64,000 bases of DNA from Thraustochytrium sp. TN22 (Eukaryota > Sar > Bigyra > Thraustochytrida > Thraustochytriidae): positions 8,896-72,895 of the forward strand of contig JABLUY010000003.1 in assembly GCA_013306675.1 (NCBI GenBank), written 5' to 3'. Shown here in pieces: positions 35,512-56,337 of this stretch. Both the position numbers and the translations under genes were made by a program. The notes beneath the pieces were generated by a model, which searched no databases, had not been told where the DNA came from, and saw nothing but the letters and a program-made list of their open reading frames with translations. Position 1 is the first letter of the stretch. Each line of letters opens with the position of its first letter.

Positions 35512-38500
35512 TCACGCAGCCTTGTCGGCGGGCTTTGGGTCGCCGCGCAAGTCCTCGACCATGGCAGTGAGGAGGCGGATCTGCTCCGCGAGGTCGACGA
35601 GCTTGGCGGAGACGACCTCCTGGTCCTGGCGCGCGGGCTTGAGTTCCTCTGTCTCCGAGGCCGGACTCCAGTGCTTGCGGCCGTCGCAGCCCTTGAGCAG
35701 GAGTGCGTCGCTCCAGACATCGATGCGAAGGTCACTGCGTGTAATGTTGCGCGCATGCAGGAGGTCGCGGAGGCTATCTTCGATACCGCTGGTGATGATT
35801 TCCTCCCACTCGCGGTCCGAGGCGGCGCGCGCGTTCGGGTAGACATCTGTCACGATGGCAATGAGCAGATTGAGCGAAATGGTGGCGAAGAGGATGTAGA
35901 GCAACGAGAGAATGGCGCCCAGTACGGAGCTGTGCGCGCTGTCGATGACGCCACTCCAGGTCTCGACAAAGGGCGTCAGGAAGAGACTCTCAAAGGTGGA
36001 CAGCATGGTGGCGAACTCCGGCGTGGAGACACCAAAGCCCACGTGAAAGGTGAGCGTGAGCAAAAAGCACGCGGTCCAGAAGACGAGCAGATAAATGAGC
36101 ACCGCCGTGTTGGTGATGGTGCTGAGGAGCGCCACAACGACCGGGCCGATCGACGGAATAGTCTGCGTGGCCTTGAGCAACGGCAGGACGCTTAGCAAAA
36201 AGTACACAGCGAAGATGCGGCGCTCCACCTCCAGAAGGCGGTGCACCTCGCTGAGATCGCGGTAGGCGGACGGGTCGAGTTCCGGGCTCACGTCGCGCGT
36301 CGTTTGATGCACGTAAAAGTCAAAGACCAGAATGCACACGAGGAGGATTTCGATGACCCATTCCTCGGTGCGGCGGCGGCGAGAGCGATGCCGGGAGAGA
36401 AACCAGCTGCGCAACTTGGTGAAGGTGAAAAAGACAACCATGACGAGGACCGCGAGCTGGAAGGTGCGCGAAGGAGGAAAGCGGCCGTAGTTGAGGCGGA
36501 ACGGCAGCACCTCCGCACTCAGCGTCGTCAGGCCAACAAAGGTGGAAGTGTGCCGGATGCTGACCAGGCCGTACACCTCAAAGAACGGGTTGTAGATGTT
36601 GAAGTCCAACTCCAGGACGTGAATGCCCGTGTCGGCCCAGGCGGCCGTTTTGCTCAGCAAATCCGCCTGCATGGCGGCCGGCTCCGCCTGGGCCAGCAGG
36701 ACCTCCTCGTACGCGTCGCTTTTGCTTGTGTCCTGGCCGGTCAGGTCCAAGATGCTCTGCGTGAGGTTCTCCAGGCCCCGGTGCCGGTGCATGCGGACTG
36801 CGACGGCGCCCACGAGCAGGTTTGACCTGCGCACTGTCATGGATGTGTGGTTGGTCTCCCTTTGCAGATCATTGGCAAGGAAGTCGTCCGCGATCCAGTC
36901 CAGAAACGCGGTCTGCCCCTGCACAGCGGCGGTGCGTTCCTCGAAGTGATTTTGGAGCAGCGAAGCCCAGGCCGCCTCCTCGGCGATGTTATAGTCCGGG
37001 GAGAGCTGCACGAGGCAGCCAAAGGTGAAAATGAGAATGAGGAGGACGCTGGTCTCCTTGAAGCACATGAGGATGGCCCGCCTGCGCCGCCAGGCACTCA
37101 CCTTGGAAGACTTGTTCATGACCTCGACCATGCGCGCCGCCGCGGCGCGCTCGGCCTGGGCCTTTTCCAGAAGGCGATCTAGCTCGCGCGTGGAGCTCAC
37201 GTAGACCTGCGACGAGTTTGCACGTTGTGCCGGACCTTCTGTGCCCGCCGCATCCTCGGCTCCCGCGCCGCCGGCACCGCCGAATGGGGGCCTGTCGGTC
37301 CCGTTCCCGGCGCCGAGGCCGGTGGCATCCATTGCGCTGTCGCGCGAGCCCTCGGGCCCGAAGCCGAAGAGGTTGCCGAGACGCGAGTCAAAGCGTTTGG
37401 CGAGCGCGAAGCGCTTGCGCAGCTCGAATGGTTTCGTCACGAGCGCCTTGGGGGTCATGGGCAGCACTCTGGCCGGCTCCGGCTCGCGACGGCGCTGTTG
37501 CGCCGCCGACACCGCCTCATCGAAGGTGCGGATTGTCTCGTCGCGGGCGCGGTCGCGGTCGCGCCGGGGCCGGAGCAGACCGCCACCGCCGTCGGCGTCC
37601 GTCATCATGGAGTTCTCGTCGCCGGCACGGAAGCTCTCTCCCTGCAGAATGCTGCTCGCGGACAGCCTGAGCGTGCCGAGGCGGGCGCGGCTGGCCTCGC
37701 GGTCGCGCCGAGACTGGCGGCCTTGGTCCGCGCGAAAGGTTCGCGCTTTATTCAGGTCATCCTCGACCCGCTTCGAAATGCGATCCTGCAGGTACTCGAC
37801 CTTGGCGGTGGTCTCGATGTGGCGCAGGAGAGCGCGAATATACGGGCTAAAGAACGAGCCGTGGTCGTACGCACCGTCCGAGAGCATGGGGTTGGCCCCG
37901 TGCTTGATGAGAAGCTCCACGATTTCAATGTTGCTGGCTTGAACCGCGAGGGAGAGCGGCGGGAAGGCGCAGAGCGTCAGTTGCGATCCATTTCCCCCAG
38001 AGCTGTCGTCGTTGCCGCCGCCGCCGCCGCCGCCGCCTCTTCTGCTGCTGCCGCCCATGCCGTTGCCCACGTCCGCCTCGTCCAGGTCATTCAAGTAGGA
38101 CCTGGCGTGACCGGTCTGGCCGAGCGCACCGCGCTGCGCGGCGCTGCGCGGCGTCGTCGCCTCGGTGCGGTAAGACCTCGCAGCGTGCGCCAAGCGCTGC
38201 GAGATGGGCCGCTCCGAGTCCATGAGCTGCGAGCTCTGGCGCTCCGGGAGGCGCCGGAGCGTCGTCATGCGATCGAGCTGCTGCTCGCCGGACCAGCGGC
38301 GGCGCTCCGAGGAGTCGCTCAAGCCCTGCGCTGGGATGATGCGCGCAGCGCGGCTCCGCTCCGACGGCGCCCCACGCGCCCGAAACATGATGCGGAAGAG
38401 CCGCCAGCGCGCCTGGGCGCCGGCAGGATTGGAAGACCTGCGCTTCTGCCGCGCGCGGTATCCGTCGCCGCCATCGTCCGAGTACAAATCGTCCTCCATG

Positions 38501-41500
38501 GTGAGCTCCTCGATGATGCCGCCGATCTTGGCGTAGTCTACCATGTCGGCGTTCAGGTCGACGATCTCGTTGGTCTGGTGCTCCTGTTGCAAGCGCTCGG
38601 TGAGGTAGCGGCAGACCGCCACGTGGCCCTGGTGGGCCGCGTGGTGCAGCGGCGTAAAGCCCATGGCATCGCAGACCAGGATGCGCGCCTGGTGTTGCAC
38701 GAGGACTTGGCACAGCTGCAGGTTGCCCAGGTACGCGCAGAGCGCAAGGGGCGTGAGCCCGTTCACGTCGCGCAGCTCTAGGTTGGCGCCTAACGCCAAC
38801 AGCCTCTTGGCCATGACGAGATGGCCGCGCTTGATGGCGATGTACAGTGGCGTGTGGCCGTACTCGTCAATTGCGTTGAGGCTTGCACCCACGTGCATGC
38901 TGGACCGCTTTGACAGCAGGATGTTGACCGAGTCGATGTGGCCGCGCCGCGCGGCCGCAAACAGGTACTGATTGAAGAGCTTGCGTCGGACCTGCTTGAG
39001 CTGCCGGTAGGCAAGGGTATTGCCCGCGGGCTGCATTGTGTCGCGCCGCCGCACCATGGTCCGCACAGCGCGCTGCGCGCCGCGCAGACCGGCGCTCAAG
39101 GCTGTCGCATGGACCGACCCGGAACTGACTGTGTCGGCGCTCGCCGCTGCCCCGTCCTCACTCTTGTCCTTGCCCTTCTCTTGCTCCTCGCCGTCCTCGC
39201 CGCTCTCGTCGGATCCCTCTTCGCCGTCGTCTTCCTCGTCCGCGGCGCGCACCAGCCAGCCGGACATGATGACGACTTTGAGCGTCTCGCGCGCGCCCTG
39301 CAGCAGCTGTGCCTTCTCGTCGTCGCTGAGGACATTATACGGCACAAGGCTCGAGTTGAGCTTGAGGTCTTTGCGGATGTTGCGGTTTGGCGCGTAACGC
39401 CAGCCCTGCCTGAACTTCTCGCTCGCCCAGACCTCGTGAGAGTTGTTCGCCAGACGGTGAACCACTTTGATCATGGCAGCCGGAATCTCGACGCCAGTGG
39501 TGTCGAGCGGCACACAGTCGGGCCGCGCGATGTCCCAGGCGAGCTCCGCAAACTTCGCCGCTGTTCCGTGCAAGTCAGACATTGTCGTGCCCAGACTGAG
39601 CTGCGTCGGCGGCCTGCGGCCGAGCGTGCTGCTGCTCGTGCTGCCTGCCGGTGGTGACCCCGGTGGCCGACCAGCTGCTGGTGGCGACCCTAGTGGCCGG
39701 CCCACCGGGGCGGGACCGACGGTGAGCGCCTTGGTGAGCCCAGCCTGCGCAATGCTGCTGTTCGCGGCGGCGGCGGCGGGGCCGCCTCCACCCCGCGCCG
39801 TGGCGGCGCTGCGGTCAACCCAGGTTGTTCGCTCAAAAGCGGGTGGGGAGATGTTGCGCACGAACTCGTAGCCGAGCGAGATGATCACCTTGAGCGTCTC
39901 CACGGCCATGTCCATATTGTACTTGGCCGCCTCGATGGTGAGTGAGTCAAAGGGCAGCAGGTGAGGGTGCAGCTTCTCCACCGGGTCTTTGTCGCGACCG
40001 TACTGCCAGCCCTGCTCGCTCAGGTTGAGCGCCCAGACGTTGTGCATGTTGCGCGCGACAATATGCGAGAGGCGCAGGAGCTCCGGGGTCAAGAGCACGT
40101 TGCCCGTGCGAATAGGTCTCGGCACGAAGCGGTAGCCTTCGAATTCGCGCACGTCCGTGGCTGCCGTGGCGCAGCAGCGGTCACGGTCACAGTCGCATTG
40201 CGAGACAACGACGCCCAGGGACTCCCAGCCCTTGTCCGGAAAGTGCTCGAAGTCAAGCTTTGAGTACGCGGACCGGCACATGCCAGGCCCATGGCAGCGG
40301 TCCTTGCAGACTAGGCAGACCGCCACGCCACACTCGCCACAGCGGTACAGGTACTGCCCCACCGGGTCGGTGCGGTTCGCGAAGGACACTGTGCATGTCT
40401 CCGGGTGCTCGATGCGCTGCGTTGTCTCCACGAGCGCCTCGTCGATGGTGATGCAGTTTTCATCCGCAAAGTTCAAAATGCTCTCGCATGCTTCGACGTC
40501 GCCCATGAGCACGAGGCGGTAGAGCAGTTCTTGCATCTGCGCCTGCGTCGACACGCTCGCATGGCAACCCAGACGCAATAGTAGGCGCGAGCACTCGAGG
40601 TGGCGCCGCTGGATGGCGAGGTCAAGCTCCACATGGCCCGTGCCCTTAATGGGCACGTTCACGCGCACGCGGTGGCGCAGGCCCTTCTTGAGCTTGGCGT
40701 CCAACGCCTTGCGCTTGCGGTTGGGCGTGGGCGCGTCGAGGAGCGCGCGAAGCACCTCGGACCGCCCGTTAAAGGCGGCGAGGTGCAAGAAGGTGATGCC
40801 CGCGTGCGTCTTCTCGTTGATGGGCAGACGCGAGGCGTTCTCGTAGCCACCCAGCGCGCGGCTCCAGTCGACGCGGGCGAAACAGCCCGACTTGGCGCTA
40901 AAGTGCAGCGGCGTCCAGCGCTCCTTGTCGGTCTCACACAGCAACGCGAAGCGGTCCTCGACGCGCGTCTGCGCGCGCAAAATAAGCTCCACTGTCGAAG
41001 CGTGCTCGCGCGTATTGGCCATGCACGCGTACATGAGCGCGGTGGTGCCAAAGGCCGCCTTGAGCTGCATCAGACTCATGCTGCTGCCGAAACTCAGCAT
41101 AATTTCAACGAGGTCCGCAAGGCCGTCGCGGCAGGCGAACATGAGCGCCGACATGAGGAACTGCAGATTCTGCCCGAAGAGGAGCTCCCGCAGCTGCTGG
41201 TCGTCCGCACGCTGCAGCAGCAAGCGCACGATTTCCGTGCGATCCGTGGCCCGCTTGCTCAGCACGGCAAGCATGAGCGCGTTCTCCTCCTTGCGAGTGC
41301 GCACGGTCAGGTTGAGGCTCTCGCCAGCCTCATCGAGGAGGAACTTGAGCGTCTGCAGGTCGCCCATCTCGCAGCACGCGTGCAGCACATTCCTGCCGCT
41401 CCACGAACAGAGCTGATTCACGACGGACATGCGCACCAGTTGCTCGATATCGGACTCGTACGTGGCGCCTTTCGAGCGACCTTCTCGAAAGACGAGGGAC

Positions 41501-42246
41501 TCGTACACACGATCCACCTCAGCGAACATCGCAACGCGGTCATAGCGTCGCGTCAGCTCCAGGCTGCCATCCAGACGAATCTTGCGGTCCTTAAGTTTAG
41601 CGATCTGGGGCCCGTCCGACTGCACAATGTGCACCTTCTCGCTGGTGAAGGCGTCCACGGCGTCCTTGACGCCCTGCTCGTTAATACCTCGGCAGCCATC
41701 CTCCACGTAGAACACCTCCACGCCCTGTAGCAGCGATTTGGCGTCCAGCACCGTGTATTGCACGCAAAAGTCCGTGGCGAGACCGACCGCGTAGATCTCC
41801 GTGACGCCGCTCTCTTCGAGAAGGTCGCGCATCTCGGTCAGCACACTGGACCCATTATCTTTGAAGACCGAATAGCTGTCGCGCTGCGGGTTGCACCCAG
41901 CGTAGGTGTAAATATCTGAGGCCTCCACCTTGAGGTCCTTGTGGAGCTCCGCACCATGTGTGCCTTGCACACAGTGGTCCGGCCACATGACCTGCGCGTT
42001 GCCCGTGGTTGGTAGGTGCACGACTTCGAAGCAGCTCGAGCCTGGGTTGTTCGTTCGAAAGGAGCAGTGGTTGTATGGGTGCCAGTCCAGGCACAGGTAC
42101 ACGAAGTCAAACTCCTTGCTGCGCAGCTTGTTGATGACAGGCAGCACGGACGCGCCATCCGGCACGGCTAGCGAGCCGTGTTCTGTGAGGATGAAATCAT
42201 TCTGGCAGTCGATCACCAGGAGCGCACGCACGGCTTTCTCGCCCAT
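35512..42246 (-). CDS. nicotinamidase-homology / ankyrin / UBR-like zinc finger / RyR-repeat / polycystin-type channel fusion
   Basis: 2,244 residues, one exon, ATG start. Residues 1-210 are a nicotinamidase-family (cysteine hydrolase) domain: D13 in I-D-C-Q-N-D-F, presumed metal ligands D54, H56 and H91, and nucleophile C161 in G-L-A-T-D-F-C-V. The lysine that completes the triad is alanine (A116, in Y-A-G-C-N-P). Then: ankyrin repeats about 276-563; a Cys/His segment 618-693 like a UBR box (C-G-E-C, C-L-V-C, C-D-C-D); two RyR repeats 718-798 (G-W-Q-Y-G) and 920-1000 (G-W-R-Y-A); ankyrin repeats about 1091-1216 and 1421-1483; and a channel from about 1723. S1 (about 1723-1748) is followed by a loop of some 180 residues as in polycystins, then S2-S5, a pore segment near 2083-2103 and S6 about 2105-2130 (L-N-L-L-I-A-I-V-T-D). 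It is probably a cation channel gated by a cytosolic ligand; nicotinamide is a natural candidate, by inference only. The plan recalls TRPM2, where a degenerate NUDT9 hydrolase senses ADP-ribose. Confidence 0.85.
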   Translation of the reverse strand: MGEKAVRALLVIDCQNDFILTEHGSLAVPDGASVLPVINKLRSKEFDFVYLCLDWHPYNHCSFRTNNPGSSCFEVVHLPTTGNAQVMWPDHCVQGTHGAELHKDLKVEASDIYTYAGCNPQRDSYSVFKDNGSSVLTEMRDLLEESGVTEIYAVGLATDFCVQYTVLDAKSLLQGVEVFYVEDGCRGINEQGVKDAVDAFTSEKVHIVQSDGPQIAKLKDRKIRLDGSLELTRRYDRVAMFAEVDRVYESLVFREGRSKGATYESDIEQLVRMSVVNQLCSWSGRNVLHACCEMGDLQTLKFLLDEAGESLNLTVRTRKEENALMLAVLSKRATDRTEIVRLLLQRADDQQLRELLFGQNLQFLMSALMFACRDGLADLVEIMLSFGSSMSLMQLKAAFGTTALMYACMANTREHASTVELILRAQTRVEDRFALLCETDKERWTPLHFSAKSGCFARVDWSRALGGYENASRLPINEKTHAGITFLHLAAFNGRSEVLRALLDAPTPNRKRKALDAKLKKGLRHRVRVNVPIKGTGHVELDLAIQRRHLECSRLLLRLGCHASVSTQAQMQELLYRLVLMGDVEACESILNFADENCITIDEALVETTQRIEHPETCTVSFANRTDPVGQYLYRCGECGVAVCLVCKDRCHGPGMCRSAYSKLDFEHFPDKGWESLGVVVSQCDCDRDRCCATAATDVREFEGYRFVPRPIRTGNVLLTPELLRLSHIVARNMHNVWALNLSEQGWQYGRDKDPVEKLHPHLLPFDSLTIEAAKYNMDMAVETLKVIISLGYEFVRNISPPAFERTTWVDRSAATARGGGGPAAAAANSSIAQAGLTKALTVGPAPVGRPLGSPPAAGRPPGSPPAGSTSSSTLGRRPPTQLSLGTTMSDLHGTAAKFAELAWDIARPDCVPLDTTGVEIPAAMIKVVHRLANNSHEVWASEKFRQGWRYAPNRNIRKDLKLNSSLVPYNVLSDDEKAQLLQGARETLKVVIMSGWLVRAADEEDDGEEGSDESGEDGEEQEKGKDKSEDGAAASADTVSSGSVHATALSAGLRGAQRAVRTMVRRRDTMQPAGNTLAYRQLKQVRRKLFNQYLFAAARRGHIDSVNILLSKRSSMHVGASLNAIDEYGHTPLYIAIKRGHLVMAKRLLALGANLELRDVNGLTPLALCAYLGNLQLCQVLVQHQARILVCDAMGFTPLHHAAHQGHVAVCRYLTERLQQEHQTNEIVDLNADMVDYAKIGGIIEELTMEDDLYSDDGGDGYRARQKRRSSNPAGAQARWRLFRIMFRARGAPSERSRAARIIPAQGLSDSSERRRWSGEQQLDRMTTLRRLPERQSSQLMDSERPISQRLAHAARSYRTEATTPRSAAQRGALGQTGHARSYLNDLDEADVGNGMGGSSRRGGGGGGGGNDDSSGGNGSQLTLCAFPPLSLAVQASNIEIVELLIKHGANPMLSDGAYDHGSFFSPYIRALLRHIETTAKVEYLQDRISKRVEDDLNKARTFRADQGRQSRRDREASRARLGTLRLSASSILQGESFRAGDENSMMTDADGGGGLLRPRRDRDRARDETIRTFDEAVSAAQQRRREPEPARVLPMTPKALVTKPFELRKRFALAKRFDSRLGNLFGFGPEGSRDSAMDATGLGAGNGTDRPPFGGAGGAGAEDAAGTEGPAQRANSSQVYVSSTRELDRLLEKAQAERAAAARMVEVMNKSSKVSAWRRRRAILMCFKETSVLLILIFTFGCLVQLSPDYNIAEEAAWASLLQNHFEERTAAVQGQTAFLDWIADDFLANDLQRETNHTSMTVRRSNLLVGAVAVRMHRHRGLENLTQSILDLTGQDTSKSDAYEEVLLAQAEPAAMQADLLSKTAAWADTGIHVLELDFNIYNPFFEVYGLVSIRHTSTFVGLTTLSAEVLPFRLNYGRFPPSRTFQLAVLVMVVFFTFTKLRSWFLSRHRSRRRRTEEWVIEILLVCILVFDFYVHQTTRDVSPELDPSAYRDLSEVHRLLEVERRIFAVYFLLSVLPLLKATQTIPSIGPVVVALLSTITNTAVLIYLLVFWTACFLLTLTFHVGFGVSTPEFATMLSTFESLFLTPFVETWSGVIDSAHSSVLGAILSLLYILFATISLNLLIAIVTDVYPNARAASDREWEEIITSGIEDSLRDLLHARNITRSDLRIDVWSDALLLKGCDGRKHWSPASETEELKPARQDQEVVSAKLVDLAEQIRLLTAMVEDLRGDPKPADKAA

Positions 42247-42526
42247 GCTCCAAGGCAGCCCTGCCCTTGCTCCTAGCCCCGCTCTTCCTCACCGGCCTCC
42301 TCTGCACATGCGTGGTGCCGAGCGGTAAAGCGCAGTGCGCAAAGCGCTGTGCGCTTTGCGAGCGAGCTCTGCGCCGCCGCCACCGCCGCCGCCTCGACGC
42401 TGCGCGACGCAAGGCGACGCCGGCCGAGACGGGCTCTGGCGACGCCAGCCCCAGCGGCGGCGGGACCGAGGCGGGCCGCGCGTTGAGAAACAGTAAGGCT
42501 ACGCTGGATTGCACTGCATTCACTGT

Positions 42527-42588
42527 AACGCAACGCAACGCAACGCAACGCAACGCAACGCAACGCAACGCAATGCAACGCAACGCAG
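42527..42588 (+). repeat. CAACG pentanucleotide array
   Basis: About 12 nearly perfect CAACG units with one CAATG variant. As pentamers they would shift frame, which suits a non-coding role. Confidence 0.9.
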
Positions 42589-42659
42589 GGCAGCGATGCA
42601 AAGTGAGCCTAAGGCAATGACCACCGTCCGAGTCGCGCCACCTCCGAGTCTGCCCAGTG

Positions 42660-43187: not shown

Positions 43188-45031
43188 ATGTCGCGGCGCC
43201 ACGAGAAGCTGCCGCTGAGCGTGGGCGGCGCCCAGATTGCACCGCGGCCCGACGAGCACGGCGGCGTGAGCGCAGCTGCGGCCGCCGCCACGGCGACGAC
43301 TGCGGCGGCGACGGCCGTGGCGGGCGAGGCCGGCTCGCGCAAGGAGAATCGACGTCGCGCGAGCAACAGGGACAGCTTCTTCCGCCGGTCCAGCACCTCG
43401 AGGACTTCGAGCGTCATGGCTAGCCATGGCAGGAAGGCGCTCGCCATCATGGTGGACGCTGCGTGCGCCGATGGCACCACCGGGGGCAGCCACGACACGG
43501 GCGCCGCCGGTGGCGGGGGCCTCAGTGACGCTGGTGGCGTGCCCCGTGCGGACGGTTGGTTCTTTTTGCAAGACGTACTGACCAAGGTCGCCACGGAGAT
43601 CGGGCCCAAGCTCGCGCAGTTGGACTGCGGCGATGGTGGTTCCGGCATCGGCCCGGCGGGCGGCGCCAGCGTTGGCAGCGGTCTGGCCTCTATGGGAAGC
43701 AGCAATAGCAGCAACAACAGCAATAGCAGCCACATCAGCAACAGCAACGGCAACAGCGGGGGCGCCGGTGGCGTCGGCTTCGGCACGAGCGGCTCAGGCC
43801 TCGCCTCGGGCGGCGGGGACGGCGCCGCACACGGCGTTCTAGACCCCTTCATGCTGCAGACGCTCTGGGAGGACTACCCTCGCCGGTGTGCATTCTTTGT
43901 CGCAGGCCTGCGCTCCTGGCTCGCACTTCCGCCACCCCTCTTTGATCAGGTCTTCGACGCTGTGATGGAGTGGGCGGAGCCGCCTTTTGCCGTGGATCGC
44001 AAGTTCCCTCGGGCGGATGGCGTTTTTCACAGCCGATTGATCGAAGTCCTCTGGTCGCGGTGCGCGGCTGACCTGCTCAGCCACCTGCTCAGGTACGACG
44101 CGGCGCGCACGTCTGAACGCGCCTGGCAGCGGCTCTTGGAGCTCGCCATCATTCACATGACACTCAAACCCGTCGTGACGGCAGGCGCCGCGAGAGAAGC
44201 CGCGCCGCAGGACATCATCAGCAGAATGGTAGCCCAGGCGCAGCTTAGCTGGGCCGCGGTACTCGGGCTAGCCGTGCGTGCAAAGCCGAGCCTGCTCCCG
44301 CGCACCTTCGGGCTCGGCCCGCCCTTTCACGCGTGGCTCTTCGTGGACCTGACGCTCGGCACCGTGGAGGTCGCGCGTGAGGTGCTCGCCATGCTCACCG
44401 ACCAACTCTCGCAGCCCAAGCTGGACAAGGCGACGCGCCTCATCATGCTGCTGGCTTTGGAACCCATCGTGGAGCGCATAAACTTTCAGCGCCTTGATGC
44501 GGGGTGGACTGCGCTGTTTGACGAGATCGTCGCTGGTCGCTTGTTTAAATCCGCCGAGCAGCTTGCCAAGACCGAGGAGCTCAAGGCCGCGGCGCTCAGC
44601 CTCATGCTCACCATCCTCACACGAGCGCCGCGCGCTTTTTACGAGGCCAACTTTCAGTCCTTCTTTTCCAAGCGCGTCATGCGCCATTTATCGGAGCCGC
44701 GCAAGGTGACACACTCGCTTGAGATCGTCCTCCGCTCGCTGCGGAGCCCGAGCTACGCGCGACCCGCGGTGGCCTGGGACGCCTTCGAGACATACGTGCC
44801 TCTGGAGACCCGCTTCAAGGAAGCGCCGTGCGCGCTGGCGCACGCCTCAGCTATCGATTACCGCACGGCAGAGACCATCTTCGCTGAGGTCTTCGAGCGG
44901 GCCCGCTCCAAGGCGCTCGCTTCGCTGGGCGGCTCCTCGTCCGCCTTTAGCCTTGCGTCCATGGGATCGCAAAGCGACCTGCTGGCCGCTGCCTCCCCGC
45001 CGCAGCAGGCGCAGCATCAAGCGCCGCCACC

Positions 45032-45069
<38 letters not shown>

Positions 45070-45076
45070 TGCCTCT

Positions 45077-45121
<45 letters not shown>

Positions 45122-48100
45122 ACTGCTGCATCACAACCCACCGTACCAAGCCCAGCTCGAGTTAGACGGGCTCGCCAACGCAAGCTCGCCCCTCGCGATG
45201 TCGCCGTCCGCACTGCACGGACCCGCGCTCACGGACTCGATCTCGTCAGTTGCCTCGCACGGATCGACCTCGTCCATGAACACAGCCCCGACGCTGGCGG
45301 GCGCGCAACAGTTCGGCCTGCCGACGCTGCCCAAGAACATTGCGGTATCCAAGCACATCGTCCTGCAGCTTGCGGCGCACGATCTCATGCTGTTCCGTGA
45401 CAGGGCCCTCCCGTTCCTGATGCAGATTCCGGACGACCTGAATCGGTGCAGCCAGACGGTGGCGAACCGCATCTTGGTCGGCATCCGGTGCCTGTGGGAC
45501 ATATTGAGTCCCGGCGCGAACGTCTTCCGCGCCACAGCCCAGTGTCTGCATGGGCCCAAAGCCGAGGCGCAGCACGCCGCGCTGCGAGATATCTTTGCGC
45601 TCGCCATGCGCAAGATGGCCGCAATGGCCAAGGCGCTGCAGGCCGTCTTCGGACTCGATGCCATGGGCCGGGCGGATACGGCGCTCGTACCGACGATTCT
45701 GTGGGACAGCACCTTTGCTGCAAACAACGCGGCGCAGGCCGACGGGGCCGCATCCCGCGGCTTCCGCGACCCCATTGGCGATGCGCGAGGCTACCCCTTT
45801 GCCTGGGCGGACCCAACACGGGGGAGCGCGCTGGATGCCAACGCGTACCTTGGCAATGGACTGGTTCTCGAGCTGCAGACGCTGGCAGCCCACAACGATC
45901 TCTTCGAGGGTGGCGCGGAGGTTGCCTTCCGCGCGCGCAATCTGACTGACAAGCTTGGCGCTGAAGCGCAGGTCGCGCAGACGCTGCGCGCGCGGGCCGG
46001 TCTCTTCAAGAAGCGTGTCAACCCGGCGCTCGAGGTCTTCCGTGAGCTTGTCTACGCGCTACCGGCGCTCTCCTGCTCGCCGGTGCCCGGGCGCACGTCC
46101 GCGGCCGCTGACGTTCCTCTGCCGGACATCTCGCTCCTCCTCCACGCCGACTGGTTCATCGCCACGGCGCTCTCGCATGCGCTGCAGCGCATCATGGGTT
46201 CCGCGCAGCACGACGACCTTCGCGTGCGGCTGCTCGACCTGCTCGCCCGCGAGACGACAAGGTCAGTGCATCGCAGCGGCAAGTGCACGTGCGCCGTCCT
46301 CACGTACGTGCGTCAGATCGTGCTGCTCCTACGCATGTGGGCGCACCAACGTGCCACAGCTGCCCGCCTGCGCGGCCAAAGCGACCCCGAGGCCTCGACG
46401 CTGCACCACGACGAGGACGTGAACGAGGACGACGAGGACGACGAGGACGGCCTGGACTGCGGCTCGCACAGCGCGCAGCCGCTCTTGGCGCTCGCCCTTT
46501 CGTTGCTCAGTTTTCCGTGCACCACGGTACGCCTGCACGCGCACGAGATCGTCGAGGTGCTCAAGAGAATTTGGCCCTCGCTCACGCGCATCTGCGATGC
46601 CGTGGCCGCCGTCCTGGCCAAGCACGCCTCGTTCTCGTACCAGTGCGCTCTCAAGGCGGCCTGCCTCTGCGCCGCTGCGCCGCCTCTACCCGGGGAGATG
46701 TCCCGTCGCAAAACTGCGGACGAGGCTTACGTCTCGTCGCCGCGATCGCCGCTTTTCGGGCCCGGGTCGCCTCGCGCCGGATCTCCCGGCCGCGCGTCCT
46801 CGCCCACGCCCACCGCCGCGGCAATTCCGCCACTCCCGCCGCTCCCGCCCCTGCCCGGGACGCCAGGCGCGCCCACGTCGTCCGGAACGGCCGCCGCCGT
46901 GGCCGCCGTCGCGGCGAATGGGCCCGGCGGCGGAGGGCCGCCCCGGCCCTACTACCACGCGCGGAGCGCGACGGCAGACGGAAGCCCTCTCTCGCGCGAT
47001 AGGCTTCGACGCGCGCCGTCCTCGTCGGAGGCGCGGGCCGTCGGCGGCACCAGCGCGGCCCTCTCTTTCCCCGTTGGCAGCTCCAGCGGCTTCGAGACGC
47101 CGCCACGCCGCCGCCGACAGAGCTTGGTTTCCGGGGATATCCTGGTCAAGGGCAGCACCGCCTCCTTCGAGAGCGCCTTCGAGTACGTGCGCGTGAACGA
47201 GACGCCCGTGGTGAGCCGCGACGAGCTCTTCTTATGGTATCGCGCGGCGGGCGTTGCGGTGGACGGCCTGGATCCGCGGTCCGGCTTGAACCGGTCGGAA
47301 CACTGGGCGGACGAGCTCATCAAGGTCGCGCGCGACCTGGTTGCCATCCCAGAGCTGCGCGCCTGCCTGCATACGGTTTCTCAGACACAGCTGCAATGGC
47401 TCGGCCAGGTGTCAGCCTTTCACATTGACGCGGACAATGTCCTCTTCTTCGAGGCGGCCCTGCGCAAGTCAGCCGTGACGCTTGTCCTCGGCCTCGCCGG
47501 GACGGACCCGAGCCTGGCGCCGCGGTCTGCGCTGCTCGTGGAGCCCGGTACAAGCGCCTGGCCCGGCGAGCTCGAGGCGGACGTGGAGACCCTCCTGTAC
47601 GACATGTGGGACGCGGCCGCGCGCATTCGAACGCACACGCCTGAGTTGACCGTGCTGCGGCGCATCGTGCTGGACCTTGCCGGAAAGAGCGTGCACCCAC
47701 ACTGCTTGGCGCGCGCCATCCAGCTCTGCCTTTCGTGGCGCGAAACGCGCCGCACTACGATGGCCTCGCCATCGCGCAACCATGTGGCCGACGATCGGCC
47801 CAAGTTCGGCAAGTTTGGCCGCAAGCGCATCGCGGAGGCCGCCGCGCAGGCCGCTGCCTTTGCAGAGGCGGACGCCGCGTCCGTGGACCAGATCTGCTGC
47901 ACGGTGCTGCGCCAGCTGCTGTCCAGCGTCGACCAAGGCTCGCTTCCCGGCTGGGAGCCAGCCCTGCGCATGGTCTTTGGCTACATGTCGACCGTGGCAC
48001 AGTCGGAGCGTCTGCGTAATGCGGACTGGACGCTGGCGCTTGAGCTCTCGCGCCTCTGCCTGCAGGCCGCGCTCGTGCTGCGCAGGAGCCTGTCGAGTAG

Positions 48101-51100
48101 CCTGGAGATGGGCCAGCTCGTGCATCGGGCCGACCAGGTCTGGCTGCGCGCGGAGCGCCGCCGCATCTGGACGCTCATGCAGACCATCGCCGGCTATGAC
48201 GACGTGCGGCTTTTCTCGGTGCGCACAACGGGCACGACCGCGGCGACCGCGTCGCCGTCCATCGCTTCGCCGCGCGTGCCCGGCACGCCTGAAGTCTCTG
48301 GGTCCGCCGGCGTGGGCCTGGGCGCGAGCCCGGGCCTCATGCAGTCGGACCGCGGCATCGTGTCGGAAAGCAAGTTCAAGATGCTGCGCGAGTTGGCCAC
48401 CAGCGTCGGCACCGAGATGCTGCGGCTCGGCCCTACTTCGCTCGGCACGGTAGCACCGCGGCCGGACGAGATGCTATGGGCTTGGTTCTACTTTGACGAG
48501 GACCGCGAAAAGGTGCCAGGCCACACTGGCTCGCTGCTGCGCCACTATCTGGTGGCACACTGGCACGTGGGCGACGTGGAAGCCGCCGGGGGCGGCACCT
48601 TTGGTCCCTTCGTCGAGCGTTGGTTTGAGGAGATGCAGGGCCGGCCTGGCACGCAGCGGCGCGCCGACGCCATCTTTGCGGCGCTCGTGGAGGCTGTGGC
48701 CGTCTGGCTCTTCCATGGGCCAGAACGCACAATGGCGCGTCCGCTCGAGCCGAGCGCGTTGGCACTCCTGGCGCTCCTAGCGCTTGTGCAGGCCGCCAGC
48801 CACCCATCGGCAGACTTCCGCGCCAAGGCCTTCGTCCTACTGGATGTGGTGGAGCGCTCCGACTCGTGGGCCAATTTGACCGGCAACACGCGCGGCGGAG
48901 GCTCGCCGTACGAGTTGCACGTGGCGAGCACGCTAGGATTGCGGACGCGGGCCGCGGACGCGCGCACGATCGAGCACACGGCATCGCAGGCCTCCTTCGT
49001 CCTCGCGGACCGCTGCCCGGGGCTCGGCCCGACCATCCTGAGCCACCTGTGCCGCCGCCTGCCGGCCTTTCACAAGGCTGGCCTTGGAGCGCAGGCGGTC
49101 CAGGTATGCGCGGCCTTCGCCCAGAGCCCGGCGACCCGCGTGCTGGCTTCCGCTGTCGCGGCCTTGCAGCAGGGCGAGCCGCCGGACCTGGCCGGCCCAG
49201 CCGGCTTCAAGCGCAGGTCGCGGAGCAATAGCACGCGTGCGCGGCGTGGCACGGACCAGGACGCCGCCGAGGACAGCGCTGGGATGGCGGGCGTCGGCAG
49301 CTCCGGAGGTGCTGCTGCGGGTGCTGCGGGTGCTGCTGGCGGCGCGCCTCGCAAGTTCTCGCACGGGACAATGGAGCTGGAGTTGCGCCAAAGCGTGCAG
49401 GAGGACATCCGCCGCGCACAAAAGCCCCACATCAGCCTCGAGGAAGTGTGGACCTGCGTCGCGACGCTAGCCAAGGACGGCACGCAGGCTACGCTGGACC
49501 TGGCGATGCCGCTCTGGCGCGCCTTTTGCACGCACAACGCCACCACGGTGGTGGACTTCTTCCTCTCGCATATCGTCTATAGCTGCCTCCCTGGCGGCAG
49601 CACGCGCGAACGCGAGATTGCGACTTTCTACCTGACGGCCATCGCGCCGGAGGTCTTCGCGGCGTCCCCCAACATTGTGCTCAACAACTTGGTGCTGGGC
49701 GTGCTTTACCGCGTCAAGTTCGAGTCGGTCACGCAAGGGCTTTTCGCAAGCGCAGTCCTCTCACCGACCTCGCGGCGGCCGCATCTCCTGCAGGAGTGGA
49801 TCCAGCTGGCGCTTTCCGTAGAGGCGGACATGGACGGCTACCTGGGCCGGCGCGAGCGCCTCGAGCAGGACCTTGATTCGCTTCTACGTAGCCAAAGTAG
49901 CGTCCTGCAGGCGCTCACCCTGTGCGCGGCCGGTGCCCGCGCGCTCTGCGCCATGGCCTTCCCGCAGATGATCACCTTCAGCCTGTGCTCGGTGATGGGC
50001 CTGCCAGTCGCAGCCCGTGGCACTGGCGGCGCGGCGGTCGCCGCCTCGTTCGAGGCGCGCGCGCCAGCGCGCGAGTGCATGGCCATGCTCTTGCGCTCGC
50101 TCATGCACGAGCGCCTCGCGCGCCGCAGCGCAGCCGTGGACCCAGCGCTGGCCGCCACGACGGCCGTGCCGGCGCATCTTCGCGGGCCGGCCACCGACGC
50201 GGCGCTCTCGCTTGCCGAGGTCAACCCGGCCGCTTACGGCAGACGCCAGCTACAGGTTGCAGTCGGTGCCATGGTGGAGTTCCTCGTGCTGTGCAGCCCG
50301 GAGGGCGATTTGCTCCATCTGTGGTGCCAATGCCTGCTGCTCAACGCGCTCGGGCTGTACCTGCAGCACATGTTCTGGAGGCCGGCGCTCATGGAGCGCT
50401 GCCTGACCGTGTATGCCGCACTGCGCAGCCGCATCAAGGGCCCGCTTTTCCTCGTGGCAGGCTTCGCCGAGGTGGACGAGAGTGTAGCGTGGCGCATCGA
50501 AGTCCTGGCGCTGCTGCGCATCGGCCATCAGGCCGTCCTCAACGACCAGTCGGCGCTGCTCAACAAGGTACTTGCATGCCTCGCGCTCCTGGACTTGCGG
50601 CCGGCCTCAGCCCCGGTGAGCAAATTCCTCCTCAATGTCTACGCCGCGGTCGCGCAGCCCGGCGCCACGGAGACGGCCTGCATGGAGCTTCTGCTCGCCG
50701 CCCTTCCGGACACGCTCTCGCAGGTGGACATTTGCGTGCACACGCTGGACCTCAAGCTGCAGGACCGCATCACGGAGGTCCTTTTGGCGTGCGACGCCCG
50801 CTGCCGTGATGCGGAGAGCGAGGACGAAGACCGTGACCCGACCATGCCCTTGACGCTGGGCGTGCGCGTCTACCGCTGCGGCCTGCTCCGCTTGGAGCTG
50901 CTGTGCACGCTTCTGCCCATTCTTACCATGGGCGGCCTGGTATCGGGTGCTTCCATCTCGGAGGCCGTGGACAGCCTGGCGCTCCCGGGCGCCGTCCGCG
51001 AGCCTCTGCACGCCTTTATCATGCGGCCCGCCGATGACGAGATGGCTCAGGCTGCCTGCGTGGCGATGATGGAACACTATGGCACCGTCACCTTTGCGAC

Positions 51101-51956
51101 GGCGCTGGTTCGCTCGAGCCTGCAGCAGATGGCCGAGCTCGCCTACAGCCCGCGACACGACGCCTACTCGTCCGCCGTCTTCCGTCTGGCCACCTGTATC
51201 CTGAACGGGTCACCAGTCTGCTTGCGGCCGCTGCTCCCGATTATGCGGGTGGCTGCCTCCGTGGAGCTCGGGCCCAAGCCGCTCGCTCTGGTGGAGTCCG
51301 TGGAGGACCTGCTGCAGGCGGCGCACGCCGCCTCGAGTGCGCTCGCCTCGCTCGACTCCGAGGCGGCAGCCCCTGATTCGGGTGGGGGGGCGGACCTGAC
51401 CACCGCCGCCGCCGCGGCAAGCCAGGAGGAGGACAGCTTTGCGAATCTTGCGAACCTGGTGGACGCTGATGCCGAGGAGCTGGAGGGGGCGCTCGCACAC
51501 TTCATGATGAAGCCCGGGTCGCCTGTGGCCTCGCCCCGCTGGCGCCAGCAGCTGCGGCGCGTCTCCAGCCACTCCTCACGCAAGAGCATGGTGGGCGCCT
51601 CAACGGACGCGGCGGACTCGACCGTCGGCTCCACCGCTGCCGCCATCCCGCCGTCCGTCTCCGTGAACCGTCCCAAGAGCCCTCTGGCGTCTGCACGCCT
51701 CGACGTGAACAGTTTAAGCCGTGGCGTGGACCTTCTTCAGGCGGAAGTGGTCGCAGATGCCGGCGCCGAGGACGACGACGGTGACGGTAGCGAGTTGGAC
51801 AACGCGGAGCTTCAGCAGCAGATGGATGAGTTCATGGTTGGCGGCGTGGCGTCGTTTGACCGATCCAAGCAGATTCATGGGCCGAGCCTGGGCGAGGAGG
51901 CGGACGAGGAGGCAGACGATGTCGAGGAGGAAGGCAGAGGAGAGAGTGGTGGTGGT

Positions 51957-51988
<32 letters not shown>

Positions 51989-52571
51989 TGGCCTGCGGCA
52001 CAGTAGTCGTGGCGCGAGCTCTGGCCGGCATTTCGATGACACCGGCGAAGCGGACCAGAGCGAGTCTGAGGAGGAGGAAGTCCATGGACATACGTGGGCC
52101 GGGTCTTCATCTTCGTTGCGCGGCGGTCGCGCGCCGGGCACGATCCGTCTTCAGCGGTACCGGTCCATGGAGCGTAGTGGCCCTTCCGAGCAGCAGTCGG
52201 CCGTGATGCGCAGGAGCTTTTTGGAAGAGCTCCTGGGCGACCCGGCCAATCACAAGCAGATCGAGACCTTCATTGTGCAGCAGCCCTCCATTGACACCTC
52301 GTGGCTCGAGTTTGCCTTGTCCATTATCGAGTACAAGCGCGAGCCCAGCCGTGACGCCGCCGATGCCCTGTACAACCAGTTCCTCGTGCTGGACGCGCTG
52401 GATACCGTGGATGTGCCGGACAGCTTTCGCGAGTCTGTGGCGGCTTCGCTGGAGCGGGCCGAGGAGGCCACAGCAGACCTCTTCGAGCTGGGATTCAAGC
52501 TCGCGCTTGATTACCTCGACAAGAACTTTCTTGGGCGTTACCTGCGCTCCGTGCAGTATTGCGAAGCTTGA
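43188..52571 (+). CDS. large Furry-like (cell-morphogenesis) scaffold with C-terminal RGS domain
   Basis: 3,127 residues, one exon, ATG start. Most of the chain is helical, leucine- and alanine-rich, of the HEAT-like kind, with family-like segments such as L-A-L-L-A-L-V-Q-A-A-S-H-P-S-A-D-F-R (about residue 1870) and L-W-R-A-F-C-T-H-N-A-T-T-V-V-D-F-F (about 2110). I assign it tentatively to Furry/Tao3/MOR2, scaffolds that work with NDR kinases in polarised growth; the match is by general pattern. Low-complexity insertions include a Pro then Gln tract (about 611-646) and an acidic and Gly-rich tract (about 2900-2935). Residues about 3005-3127 are a clear RGS domain: F-L-E-E-L-L at its start, S-I-I-E-Y-K, A-L-Y-N-Q-F, V-D-V-P-D-S-F-R-E-S-V and F-L-G-R-Y-L-R-S at its end. 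RGS domains speed GTP hydrolysis by G-alpha proteins, so it may link heterotrimeric G-protein signals to cell shape. Confidence 0.7.
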
Positions 52572-52786: not shown

Positions 52787-55700
52787 TCACTGGCCTGCGA
52801 CAGCGGAGGACTGAGGCGGGTATCGTGAGAGGACGGAAGGCAGCACACACCACTTGGAGCCGGACCTCTTCTCTCGTGTGGCGACCTCGCTGATCTTGGC
52901 ACGAATGGCCTTCTTGGTTGGAGTCCGTACCGGAGTGGCCGTATTCTCCGATGCACTTGCGCAGATCACCGCGAGCGAGCTGTACACATCCTCCACAAGC
53001 TTGGGCAGGATGTCGGTCTTCTCATGCACCAGGGCGACAAGGTCCGACATGCGCTCCTCCGGGAAGAGTCGGGCTGGCCTGGATGCAGGAGACCGGCCCG
53101 CGGCGCCGGGCGAAGCAGTAACCTTTTCCGTGGCGTCAGTTCGTGCAGGGGTGGAGGGACTCTTGAGGAAGCCGACAATGGTACCGGCCTTGCTGTTGTT
53201 AGCTGGGATCGCAGGCTTTTGGGCCGCCGCGGGGCCTGCTACAGGCGTGGGCTGCAGTCGTCTCTTCTTCTTCTTCTGCTGTTGCTGCTGTTGATGTTTG
53301 TCCTGGAGCGCAGCTTCCCTCTCCTTGCGCTTGCGCTCCAAGCGCTCCTCCTTCTCCTTGCGCTTGCGCTCCTCCTTCTCTTCCTTCTCCTTCTCGCGCT
53401 TCTCGTCGCGCAGGCGCTTGGCCTCCTCGCGAAGCTTGCGCTTCTCCTCTTTCTCCTTCTCCTTCTCGAGGCGGCGCACGTCGCTCTTGGAGAGGATCTC
53501 CATGGCGAGCTCGTCCGCCGTGGGCGGCTCCAGCGAGATGGGCCCCGCTAGGTACGCGCGCGCCTCGTCGTGCGTGGTGTGGGTCTCCAGCGCGAGCGCC
53601 TCAACCGGATACGCGAGCAGGTTGGTTGCAAGGCTGGCGGCGTCCTGCGCGGCGGCCGCCTCCGGATCGTACACGACGCCGACTGCGTAGCGAACGTTGC
53701 CAGCCTTACGGCGCGCCGGGGCGCGCGCGCTGGCGAGCAAGTCGTCCTCGTCGTCCTCGCCCTCCTCTTCCTCGGCCATCTCCTTGCCGGCGTACTCGAC
53801 GTCCTCATCGCGCATGAGCCAGCCGTCCTGGTAGTCGAGCTCCTTGTCATCCTCAGAGGCCGCGTCGCTGTTGCCGACGCTTTCCGCGTCCTCTGGGTCC
53901 TCCTGCCACTCTTCGTCGCTGTCCGCCTCGTAGTCCAGCGAGGAATCGCGCGCGAACGGCTGGCGCCCGCACACCGTGGCGCTCCGCTTGCGAAAGGTGC
54001 CAAAGTAAGGCGGCCGCCGGTTCTCGCCGAAATGGAAGAGCTTCTTGCGCTGCGCATTCGCGACAACGGCCGGGTCGTCTACGAGCTGCACCGAGGCCTC
54101 CTGCGGGTCCAGAGCGGAGACGTCACGCGTTGCTGCACTCGAGACCGCGCCCGCGGCCACTGGCCGCCGAAACACGGCGACAGGCCGCTTGCGCGCCAGC
54201 CGCTTAACCCATTCGCCCAGGACTAGCGCTTCACCATGCTGCAGGCCCTCGTCCACGCGCCGCGAGGCCGCTTCGAGGTCTGCCTCCGAGGATGGCGCGG
54301 CCAGACCGGGCGCGGACGTCGAGGCACCCGTCGCAGAGGTGGCGGCCGCGATCGGCGTGGACGGCGCCTTCTTGAAGAAGTTCGTCAGCGGTACGCCCTT
54401 CTTGCGCTGCTCACGGGCCTTCTCCTGCGCCTTGGCCGCCTCTCGCGCAAGCCGCTGCTCCTCCTTGGCCTGCTCGCGGCGCTCGCGGTCCTTCTGCTTC
54501 GCCGCCGCCTTCTCCAGTCGCTCGCGCTCGCGCTGGCGAGCAACTTCGTCCTCGCGCAACAGACGCTCCACGGTCTCCAGCTCACGCGCCACGCGCGTCG
54601 CCAGCTTGTCCTCGTGGTTACGCCGCAGGCTGCGCAGGACCCGCGATGTAGCCGTGATGCGCTTCGAGACCGCCGCCATGCGCCGCCGGTTTTCTTGGAC
54701 CGCCTTGGCGCCCGCCTCGGGGAGCAGCGAAAGATTCACCACCTCCCACCGCCACAGCGCGTCCTCCTCGGTGTCCTCCTTGGCGATGGCGGCCTTGCGC
54801 TTGATGCCATGTGCCTTGCGCTCCGCAAGGAGAAGGATGCGCTCGTGCAGAGCCGCGGCTTCGCCCTCCGTGCCTGCCTCATCCGCGATGCTCGCCGCCA
54901 GCGCGTCCAGGGTCTCCGTGCGCCCCTGCACGCGGCACGCGAGGCGACGCTGTGCCTCAGCCTCGTCCAGGTCGGCGGTGAGAGGCCCGGCCTCCGCAGC
55001 TGCGTTCGGGATCTGCGCATCCTCCAGCAGGGCGCGCCCATCTTCGAGGAAGCGAGCCAGGTGCTCCGCCTGTGTGCCGATGCGCGGGTCGTCCTGCTCG
55101 GTCAGGTCGCTGGGCGGGGCCGGCTTGGCCTTCTTGCCGGGCGATGCGGCCGAGGCCTCTTTGTCGCCAACCGACGCCCTGGGCGATGCGGCGGCCTTGG
55201 GCGAAGCTGTGGTCGATTCGGCGGCCTTGGCCTTGGCCTTGGTCTTGACCTCGGTCGCGACCTCGTTCTTGGTTTTGGTCTTGTCCTCGTCCGTGGCCTT
55301 GGCCTTGGTCGCACGTTGCCGCCGCGGCTTCTTTTGCTTGGTCTCGGGGGCCGTCTCGACAGCCGTCGGAGCATCCGCCTCCACCTCCATAACATCGTCA
55401 CTCTTGGCCTCCTTGGCATCGTCGTCCTGCGCGACGGGCTTGCTCGCGGTCTCCACGACCTCAATCTCGTCGTCATCGTCGTCATCGTCGTCGTCGTCGT
55501 CGTCGTTGTCATCGTCGTTGTCGTCCTTCTCCCCCTCCTTCTCCTCGTCGTCATCGTCCTCAACGACAAGGATTTGGTTTTTGGCAAGGTTTGAGTTGAG
55601 CTCCGCGGGCTCGCAAGGGGCTGCGTCGCTAGCAGCACCTTCGTCATTGCCTGAAGAGGACCGAGTGCGGCGCTTCGTCACGCGTGTCGAGGCGCTCTCG

Positions 55701-56146: not shown

Positions 56147-56337
56147 CGTTAACCCGCCGGCCTCGCGCCGAGTGTCGCCCGCCTCCTCGCTCGCGCCGCA
56201 CAGCCCGGGCGGTGAGCGGGAGGGCCTCGCGCCGCGCGGCCCGCCTCGCGCCGTGCTGCTCGCGCGCCGCTCGCGCAGTCGTTGGCCGCGCCGCGGGAGC
56301 TTGATCGGCGATCGTGGTTTGAGCACGAGCGCGCCGC

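Follow-up and report, generated by a model that had tools for sequence, protein, structure and literature searches.

Enzyme folds of NAD metabolism are found on channels of the TRP superfamily in TRPM2 and the TRPM2 chanzyme (PMC11479946, PMC6461439, PMC5671594), and in human TRPM2 the NUDT9-H domain is catalytically inactive (PMC11479946, PMC5671594). Nicotinamide is an agonist of the worm and fly TRPV channels OSM-9/OCR-4 and Nan-Iav, which belong to the same superfamily (PMC5064019). Among the stramenopiles, the oomycete PKDRR proteins carry a pair of RyR domains on a polycystin-type channel; two paralogues are present in most of the surveyed oomycete genomes, one protein was reported at the cell surface, and the combination of RyR and polycystin was described as restricted to oomycetes (Zheng et al. 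2020, PMC7399828).

The gene described here lies in a window of 64,000 nucleotides (the whole stretch of DNA analysed) from Thraustochytrium sp. TN22, and several patterns emerge from comparing its product with these systems. As in TRPM2, an NAD-metabolism enzyme fold is carried on a TRP-superfamily channel, a parallel that the sequence-only reading had drawn and that we uphold, and as in the human NUDT9-H domain catalysis appears to have been lost; the enzyme family is a different one, however, it occupies the opposite end of the protein, and the channel is of the polycystin rather than the TRPM class. OSM-9/OCR-4 and Nan-Iav are TRPV-type, unlike the window protein, and to our knowledge have no nicotinamidase-like domain. 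The six-helix channel and large S1-S2 domain are shared with polycystin-2 (PKD2, TRPP2), to which the window protein adds a long N-terminus of ankyrin, RyR and pseudo-enzyme parts; its presumed pore motif, PFVETW at residues 2092-2097 by our own assignment, contrasts with LGD in mammalian PKD2-like channels (PMC7399828). From the nicotinamidases and pyrazinamidases themselves (PncA, Pnc1; PDB 2wt9, 9u8m) the N-terminal domain differs in having Ala in place of the catalytic Lys and in being fused to a channel.

The RyR domains of PKDRR are placed by their distance to the C-terminus, fewer than 10 residues in subfamily B and more in subfamily A, which we read as a position C-terminal of the channel (PMC7399828), whereas those of the window protein (707-795 and about 913-999) are N-terminal of the channel (1723-2137) and between two ankyrin blocks. 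The main text on PKDRR mentions neither isochorismatase nor 'nicotinamid', and ankyrin once, for ITPR homologues (PMC7399828); PKDRR is set apart here by this description, and its sequences may hold a hidden pseudo-nicotinamidase. The window gene and a protein of the thraustochytrid Hondaea fermentalgiana (P0130, with two RyR domains and Ion_trans in Pfam) now show RyR and polycystin together beyond the oomycetes, contrary to the published restriction (PMC7399828). A description of a nicotinamidase-channel fusion was not found in the open-access literature, among the matches listed, from which PKDRR emerged and no further lead, and the main text of PMC12221091 mentions none of ion channel, polycystin, ankyrin, 'nicotinamid' or calcium. 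To that extent the earlier statement that no protein with this domain order has been described holds; it needs qualifying in that databases contain entries for such proteins under different names, as for Hondaea with 'Ankyrin repeat domain-containing protein 1', and in that the RyR and polycystin part was already published as PKDRR (PMC7399828). The best reading by analogy is a channel of the TRP superfamily whose putative sensor descends from an NAD-metabolism enzyme, analogous to NUDT9-H of TRPM2 and independent of it.

Reading frame, domain order and channel

The features of the gene are collected in Table 1. The frame begins with an ATG at the 42246 end, 14 codons from the upstream in-frame stop, and continues for 2244 codons with zero internal stops, bearing out the proposed fusion in one uninterrupted frame; the GC content at third positions is 0.73-0.93 over its whole length, including the junction. 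An antisense frame within the gene is open for 532 codons and high GC favors long chance frames, and we therefore rest the reality of the gene on its relatives and not on the openness of the frame. About a dozen near-identical five-base repeats are located upstream of the gene (about 42525-42590), where a plus-strand frame reads ATQRN repeats.

Table 1. Coordinates of the channel gene and its parts within the window
Feature	Position	Strand	Basis
Complete ORF, 2244 aa: pseudo-nicotinamidase/ankyrin/Cys-rich/RyR-RyR/ankyrin/polycystin-type channel	35512..42246	-	Frame and relatives
Nicotinamidase-fold domain without catalytic Lys, residues about 6-211	41614..42231	-	
Codon 116, GCT (Ala), catalytic-lysine position	41899..41901	-	Alignment with relatives and free enzymes
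Codon 161, Cys kept at nucleophile position	41764..41766	-	Alignment with relatives and free enzymes
First ankyrin block, residues about 284-590	40477..41397	-	Pfam and model match
Cys-rich, zinc-finger-like module, residues about 612-695	40162..40413	-	Alignment of members
RyR domain 1, residues 707-795	39862..40128	-	Pfam
RyR domain 2, residues about 913-999	39250..39510	-	Profile match at C332:48145-48405
Second ankyrin block, residues about 1088-1218	38593..38985	-	Pfam
Transmembrane helix S1, residues about 1723-1752	36991..37080	-	Hydropathy and model
Extracytosolic polycystin domain between S1 and S2, residues about 1753-1925	36472..36990	-	Model strands, polycystin fold match
S2-S6 channel with pore, residues about 1927-2137	35836..36468	-	Pfam, model, fold match, hydropathy

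Pfam matches in the window protein include Isochorismatase at residues 8-201 (E 5.6e-19), many ankyrin repeats, and two RyR domains (E 3.1e-45), and an ankyrin-type chain (6mol_A) aligns over residues 242-605 of the model. The Cys-rich module has no match in the Pfam scan, and four of its cysteines (C618, C636, C644 and C647) are unchanged in all 14 aligned members. MIR, RIH and ITPR, the domains of RyR/IP3R release channels, are absent among the 11 Pfam families matched at E<=1, and no Nudix domain is matched in the Pfam scan, so that the protein is not a chanzyme of the TRPM2 type (NUDT9-H plus TRPM channel).

At the C-terminal side, Ion_trans is matched at E 3.4e-6 (26.9 bits, cut-off 25) and PKD_channel narrowly at E 4e-5 (23.6 bits, cut-off 22.4), and Polycystin_dom has no match in the window protein. 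Hydropathy and the structural model (pLDDT 67, pTM 0.55) give six transmembrane helices, a polycystin fold and an S1-S2 domain, which we take to be TOP-like, and polycystin-2 is the structural match of the channel (Foldseek E down to 1.3e-12, about 15% identity). By its predicted fold the window protein is a polycystin-family (TRPP-type) channel, and the six-helix polycystin-type channel of the sequence-only reading is recovered by hydropathy, model, Foldseek and Pfam alike.

Loss of the catalytic lysine from an otherwise conserved pocket

Nicotinamidase chemistry depends on an Asp-Lys-Cys triad, with the ligand held by a metal site. Nicotinamidases are the top Foldseek and VIA matches to the fold of the N-terminal domain, in which the triad is incomplete: D13 and C161 are kept and A116 replaces the Lys, at the same distance from the downstream DSYS motif as in nicotinamidases. 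Because the change from Lys to Ala (codon GCT) takes at least two base changes, a single sequencing error is ruled out. The Asp-His-His metal ligands are present as D54, H56 and H91; together with A157 and C161 these match Asp54, His56, His89, Ala155 and Cys159 of the Acinetobacter nicotinamidase, in which the first three bind the metal, nicotinic acid is tethered to that metal, and the Ala155/Cys159 oxyanion hole takes the carboxylate (PMC3025910). F18 and W88 are also kept and correspond by position, in an equivalence that is our own, to the substrate-binding Phe13 and Trp68 (PMC3025910).

Position 116 is Ala in the window protein and P0001-P0009, the ten sequences whose pocket resembles that of a nicotinamidase, and Lys in all 119 free nicotinamidases compared (the best 120 of 6039, minus P0009). 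A further group, whose pocket has been scrapped, has Ser (P0129 and the own-genome paralogue C435), Thr (P0130) or Arg (P0157, alignment unsure), such that Lys occurs in none of the 14 channel-family sequences. P0008, which has the second half of the domain only, is counted for residue 116 and left out of the pocket score and the tree below; the domain of P0157 is our own assignment in the absence of a Pfam match, and is not in the tree; and P0140, in which no nicotinamidase domain was seen, is left out of all residue counts. Seventeen loci on viral contigs match the query in its nicotinamidase part only, with Lys in 11 of the 11 where the motif was found and the other 6 left unscored.

The extent to which the remainder of the pocket is retained was scored from the 47 columns conserved at 95% or more in the 119 free enzymes, 11 of which, excluding the Lys, were assigned to the pocket from residue lists in PMC4331714 and PMC3025910, with H60 and F63 as our additions. 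All 11 are kept in seven of the nine scored members (the window protein, P0001-P0004, P0006 and P0009), 10 in P0007 (Asp to Cys) and 9 in P0005 (Cys to Thr, one Leu to Ile), as against 4 in P0129, 3 in P0130, 3 in C435 and 4 in P0157. H60 and F63 are kept in every scored sequence of both groups, and without them the seven have 9 of 9, P0007 8, P0005 7, and the scrapped group 1-2. The invariant columns outside the pocket are kept at 28-32 of 35 in the pocket-bearing set and at 13-26 of 35 in the other. These counts indicate that one set has lost essentially one pocket residue, and the scrapped set has lost the pocket. On the nicotinamidase model NF008623 (NCBIfam, equivalog cut-off 174) all ten free enzymes tested pass with 180-274 bits, whereas the window domain is below the cut-off at 164; P0009 scores 162, P0129 91, P0130 47.5 and C435 21.9.

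A Lys at residue 129 was considered as a stand-in for the missing one. It is present in the window protein and P0001-P0005, but Asn, Met and Arg take its place in P0006, P0007 and P0009, and it is rejected as a general answer; P0129 and P0130, whose pocket is lost, have a Lys there as well, and 65 of the 119 free enzymes have Arg there in addition to the catalytic Lys.

Relatives, a paralogue and a NUDT9-like segment

With residues 1-300 as the query, a search of long proteins recovered eight relatives, including P0002 (from Hondaea, Labyrinthulomycetes), P0004 (named as an MMETSP transcript) and P0007 (by name a transcriptome ORF, typed as 'complete'), with full-length identities to the window protein from 66% (P0002) down to 27% (P0007). 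A query with residues 560-2200 added P0129, P0130 (a second Hondaea protein), P0140 and P0157; this search scored the 8000 candidates with the most words in common, among which ankyrin proteins dominate, and the family surely has more members than these. Six more long proteins (P0001-P0005 and P0129) share the order of nicotinamidase fold, ankyrin, RyR and channel, in agreement with the order first proposed and with Pfam, and identity over the junction is 78%. P0009 is 245 residues long, 64% identical to the window protein and encoded on a contig of 1818 bases with no channel in view, and probably represents a fragment of a gene of this type.

Across 14 members, Pfam at E<=0.01 matches ankyrin in all 14, RyR in 12, Isochorismatase and Ion_trans in 10 each, PKD_channel in 5 and Polycystin_dom in 3. 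P0007 has clear channel matches (Polycystin_dom 5e-20, PKD_channel 9.7e-14), and neither it nor P0006 has a RyR match in the Pfam scans. These two suggest a core of nicotinamidase-like domain, ankyrin and polycystin, with RyR either added to it or lost in P0006 and P0007.

The genome of TN22 encodes a second channel of the same architecture, C435 (L005:1032-7679, minus strand), for which Pfam reports two RyR domains, ankyrins and Ion_trans, and Isochorismatase is not matched; its N-terminal domain is assigned from a PncA-query match (E 4.7e-9) and its NF008623 score. Its Hondaea equivalent is P0130. In a tree of 12 channel-borne domains (P0008 and P0157 omitted) and 26 of the 119 free domains, the channel-borne domains fall on one side of a branch with support of 79/86 and 78% of bootstraps; C435, P0007 and P0130 have long branches, and P0007 adjoins the free enzymes. 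With this moderate support a single origin of the channel-borne domains is favored, not proven. A RyR domain also occurs in a separate frame of 227 codons elsewhere in the genome (G000 C420:335955-336224, L006; E 5.9e-33), and outscores every RyR domain of the two channels.

P0006 departs from its relatives. This single environmental ORF of 3051 residues, from a metagenomic contig of 9737 bases, has its pseudo-nicotinamidase at 1050-1244 and a weak channel match (PKD_channel E 0.0052, below cut-off). Ahead of the pseudo-nicotinamidase there is a weak Sa_NUDIX match (190-397, 5.9e-6) and a segment at about 641-993 whose PDB matches include NUDT9 (1q33, E 2.4e-16) and, at 4.6e-14, channels of the TRPM2 type (6co7); the PDB search was run on P0006, and the remaining members were scanned with Pfam. 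The presumed Nudix box, ERLMND, does not show REXXEE, which we take as the Nudix-box pattern, and pairs weakly, at 1.8 bits over this part, with KRILRQ in a TRPM2 chain. P0006 would combine both kinds of domain, NUDT9-like and pseudo-nicotinamidase, and is a lead from one environmental ORF.

NAD metabolism and the role of the domain

The genome was searched in six frames, ignoring introns, in an assembly that may be incomplete, and absence from these searches is not proof. PF00857 has two matches, the window gene and C321:68300-68701, and the latter is rejected as a nicotinamidase, with YcaC its best match, although far short of the cut-off of that model (31.5 vs 310 bits), and 18.8 on the nicotinamidase model; a bacterial PncA query finds the window gene and C435 only. 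Beside the window gene, C435 and this YcaC-like protein the six-frame profile and PncA searches show no other candidate for a nicotinamidase, and NAMPT_N has no six-frame match. PF04095 matches one place (L011), which is NAPRT (TIGR01513, 507 bits), and a quinolinate phosphoribosyltransferase is present. Either nicotinamide is unrecycled, or a nicotinamidase has been missed, or, as we think very unlikely, the channel domain is the enzyme.

The explanation that we prefer, and to which we give an even chance, is that the gene encodes a polycystin-family (TRPP-type) cation channel whose N-terminal pseudo-nicotinamidase is probably a sensor of nicotinamide or nicotinate. An ancestral nicotinamidase would have been joined to an ankyrin/polycystin channel, and hydrolysis lost by replacement of the catalytic Lys, with the Cys, the ligands of the metal, the aromatic residues of the substrate cavity and the oxyanion-hole residue all retained. 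The cytosolic pseudo-enzyme would then bind nicotinamide (or nicotinate) at the metal site with no turnover, and its occupancy could be relayed via the ankyrin/Cys-rich/RyR arm, shifting the opening of the polycystin-type cation pore; the channel would thereby translate nicotinamide in the cytosol, as a measure of NAD+ consumption, into a cation signal, probably of Ca2+. Sequence and model establish the fusion, its conservation, the loss of the Lys and the fold of the channel, while we infer the ligand, which way it acts, the membrane location and the ion selectivity. Lacking the pocket, the paralogue C435 (2215 aa) would either be a partner blind to the ligand or form a channel with gating of its own. 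The TRPV agonism of nicotinamide and the inactive human NUDT9-H domain, both noted above, are precedents. Against a dead-enzyme sensor, P0005 lacks the Cys and P0007 the Asp, and the persistence of paralogues without a pocket means that the domain can serve without a ligand. If correct, the TRPM2 principle, an NAD-metabolism enzyme as the sensory head of a TRP-superfamily channel, would have arisen a second time and independently, with another enzyme at the other end of another channel class; the disarming of one residue in a preserved pocket makes a sharp prediction, binding without turnover.

The sequence-only reading had proposed a working chanzyme, in which nicotinamide is converted to nicotinate and turnover shapes channel activity; with the catalytic Lys missing it is rejected as the likeliest reading, and we consider it very unlikely. 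The nicotinamide-gated channel that it offered as the alternative agrees with the putative sensor that we prefer. Some other residue would have to replace the Lys in all ten pocket-bearing sequences, and Lys129 serves poorly for the reasons given; in addition the pyrazinamidase mutant Lys96Gln is nearly inactive (PMC3025910), the nucleophile is missing in P0005, the nicotinamidase cut-off is not reached, and pocket-less paralogues exist. What speaks for turnover is the intact remainder of the pocket in seven of nine members and the content of the genome, since with NAPRT present and neither another nicotinamidase nor NAMPT found it can be argued that the domain must be a working nicotinamidase. 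A rather unlikely alternative is that the dead enzyme is a purely structural module for assembly or protein docking, binding no small molecule. Such a module would account for the persistence, in TN22 as in Hondaea (P0130), of paralogues that keep the architecture with a scrapped pocket, but docking gives no evident reason for keeping the metal ligands and oxyanion-hole residues, nor for the difference between 11 of 11 pocket columns in most members and the 3-4 of the paralogues.

The pocket could also sense something else, e.g. Fe2+ or Zn2+ at the Asp-His-His site, thiol oxidation at Cys161, or another carboxamide. Most of the pocket-bearing subfamily retains the metal site and the Cys, and Fe, Zn or Mn occupies this site in characterized enzymes (PMC3025910); however, the retention of F18 and W88 as well, and the absence of the Cys from P0005, make this distinctly unlikely. 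That the fusion is an artefact of misassembly, or two genes read as one, has a negligible chance in our judgement in spite of the frequent long chance frames at high GC. An assembly join near 41.5 kb is countered by a junction conserved across species, a separate nicotinamidase mRNA by P0004, which bears the name of an MMETSP transcript and spans both parts, and the supposition that the parts are always separate genes by the relatives with both in one protein; P0007 has the same order without RyR in a 'complete' transcriptome ORF, and the paralogue C435 repeats the order within the same genome. Misassembly and a split gene are rejected on these grounds.

Starting from the preferred reading of a pseudo-nicotinamidase sensor, a broader view is possible but tentative, in which thraustochytrids host a family of NAD-catabolite-gated polycystin channels. 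The loss of one catalytic residue would have turned an enzyme into a receptor, and the family would have diverged into type A subunits, which bind the ligand, and type B subunits, which are blind to it; the two may co-assemble. In the lineage of P0006 a degenerate ADP-ribose domain of the NUDT9 type would have been added to the same polypeptide, making it an NAD sensor with two inputs, and, neither NAMPT nor a free nicotinamidase having been found, nicotinamide could serve as an unrecycled read-out of NAD+ consumption.

Several other large ORFs are present in the window. Beside the channel gene, a giant ORF of 7351 residues (12491-34546, minus strand) encodes a HECT ligase with Cul7, SPRY and Tudor matches, presumably HERC2-like. 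A divergent ORF of 3127 residues (43188-52571, plus strand) shares its 5′ intergenic region with the channel gene, and its sole match is a sub-threshold RGS close to the C-terminus. Further away are a 1729-residue ORF (4082-9271, minus strand) with DUF4062, NACHT/AAA and WD40-type matches in an NLR-like layout, and a homologue of the chromatin assembly factor 1 large subunit (52787-56326, minus strand; CAF1A_dimeriz 2.1e-20).
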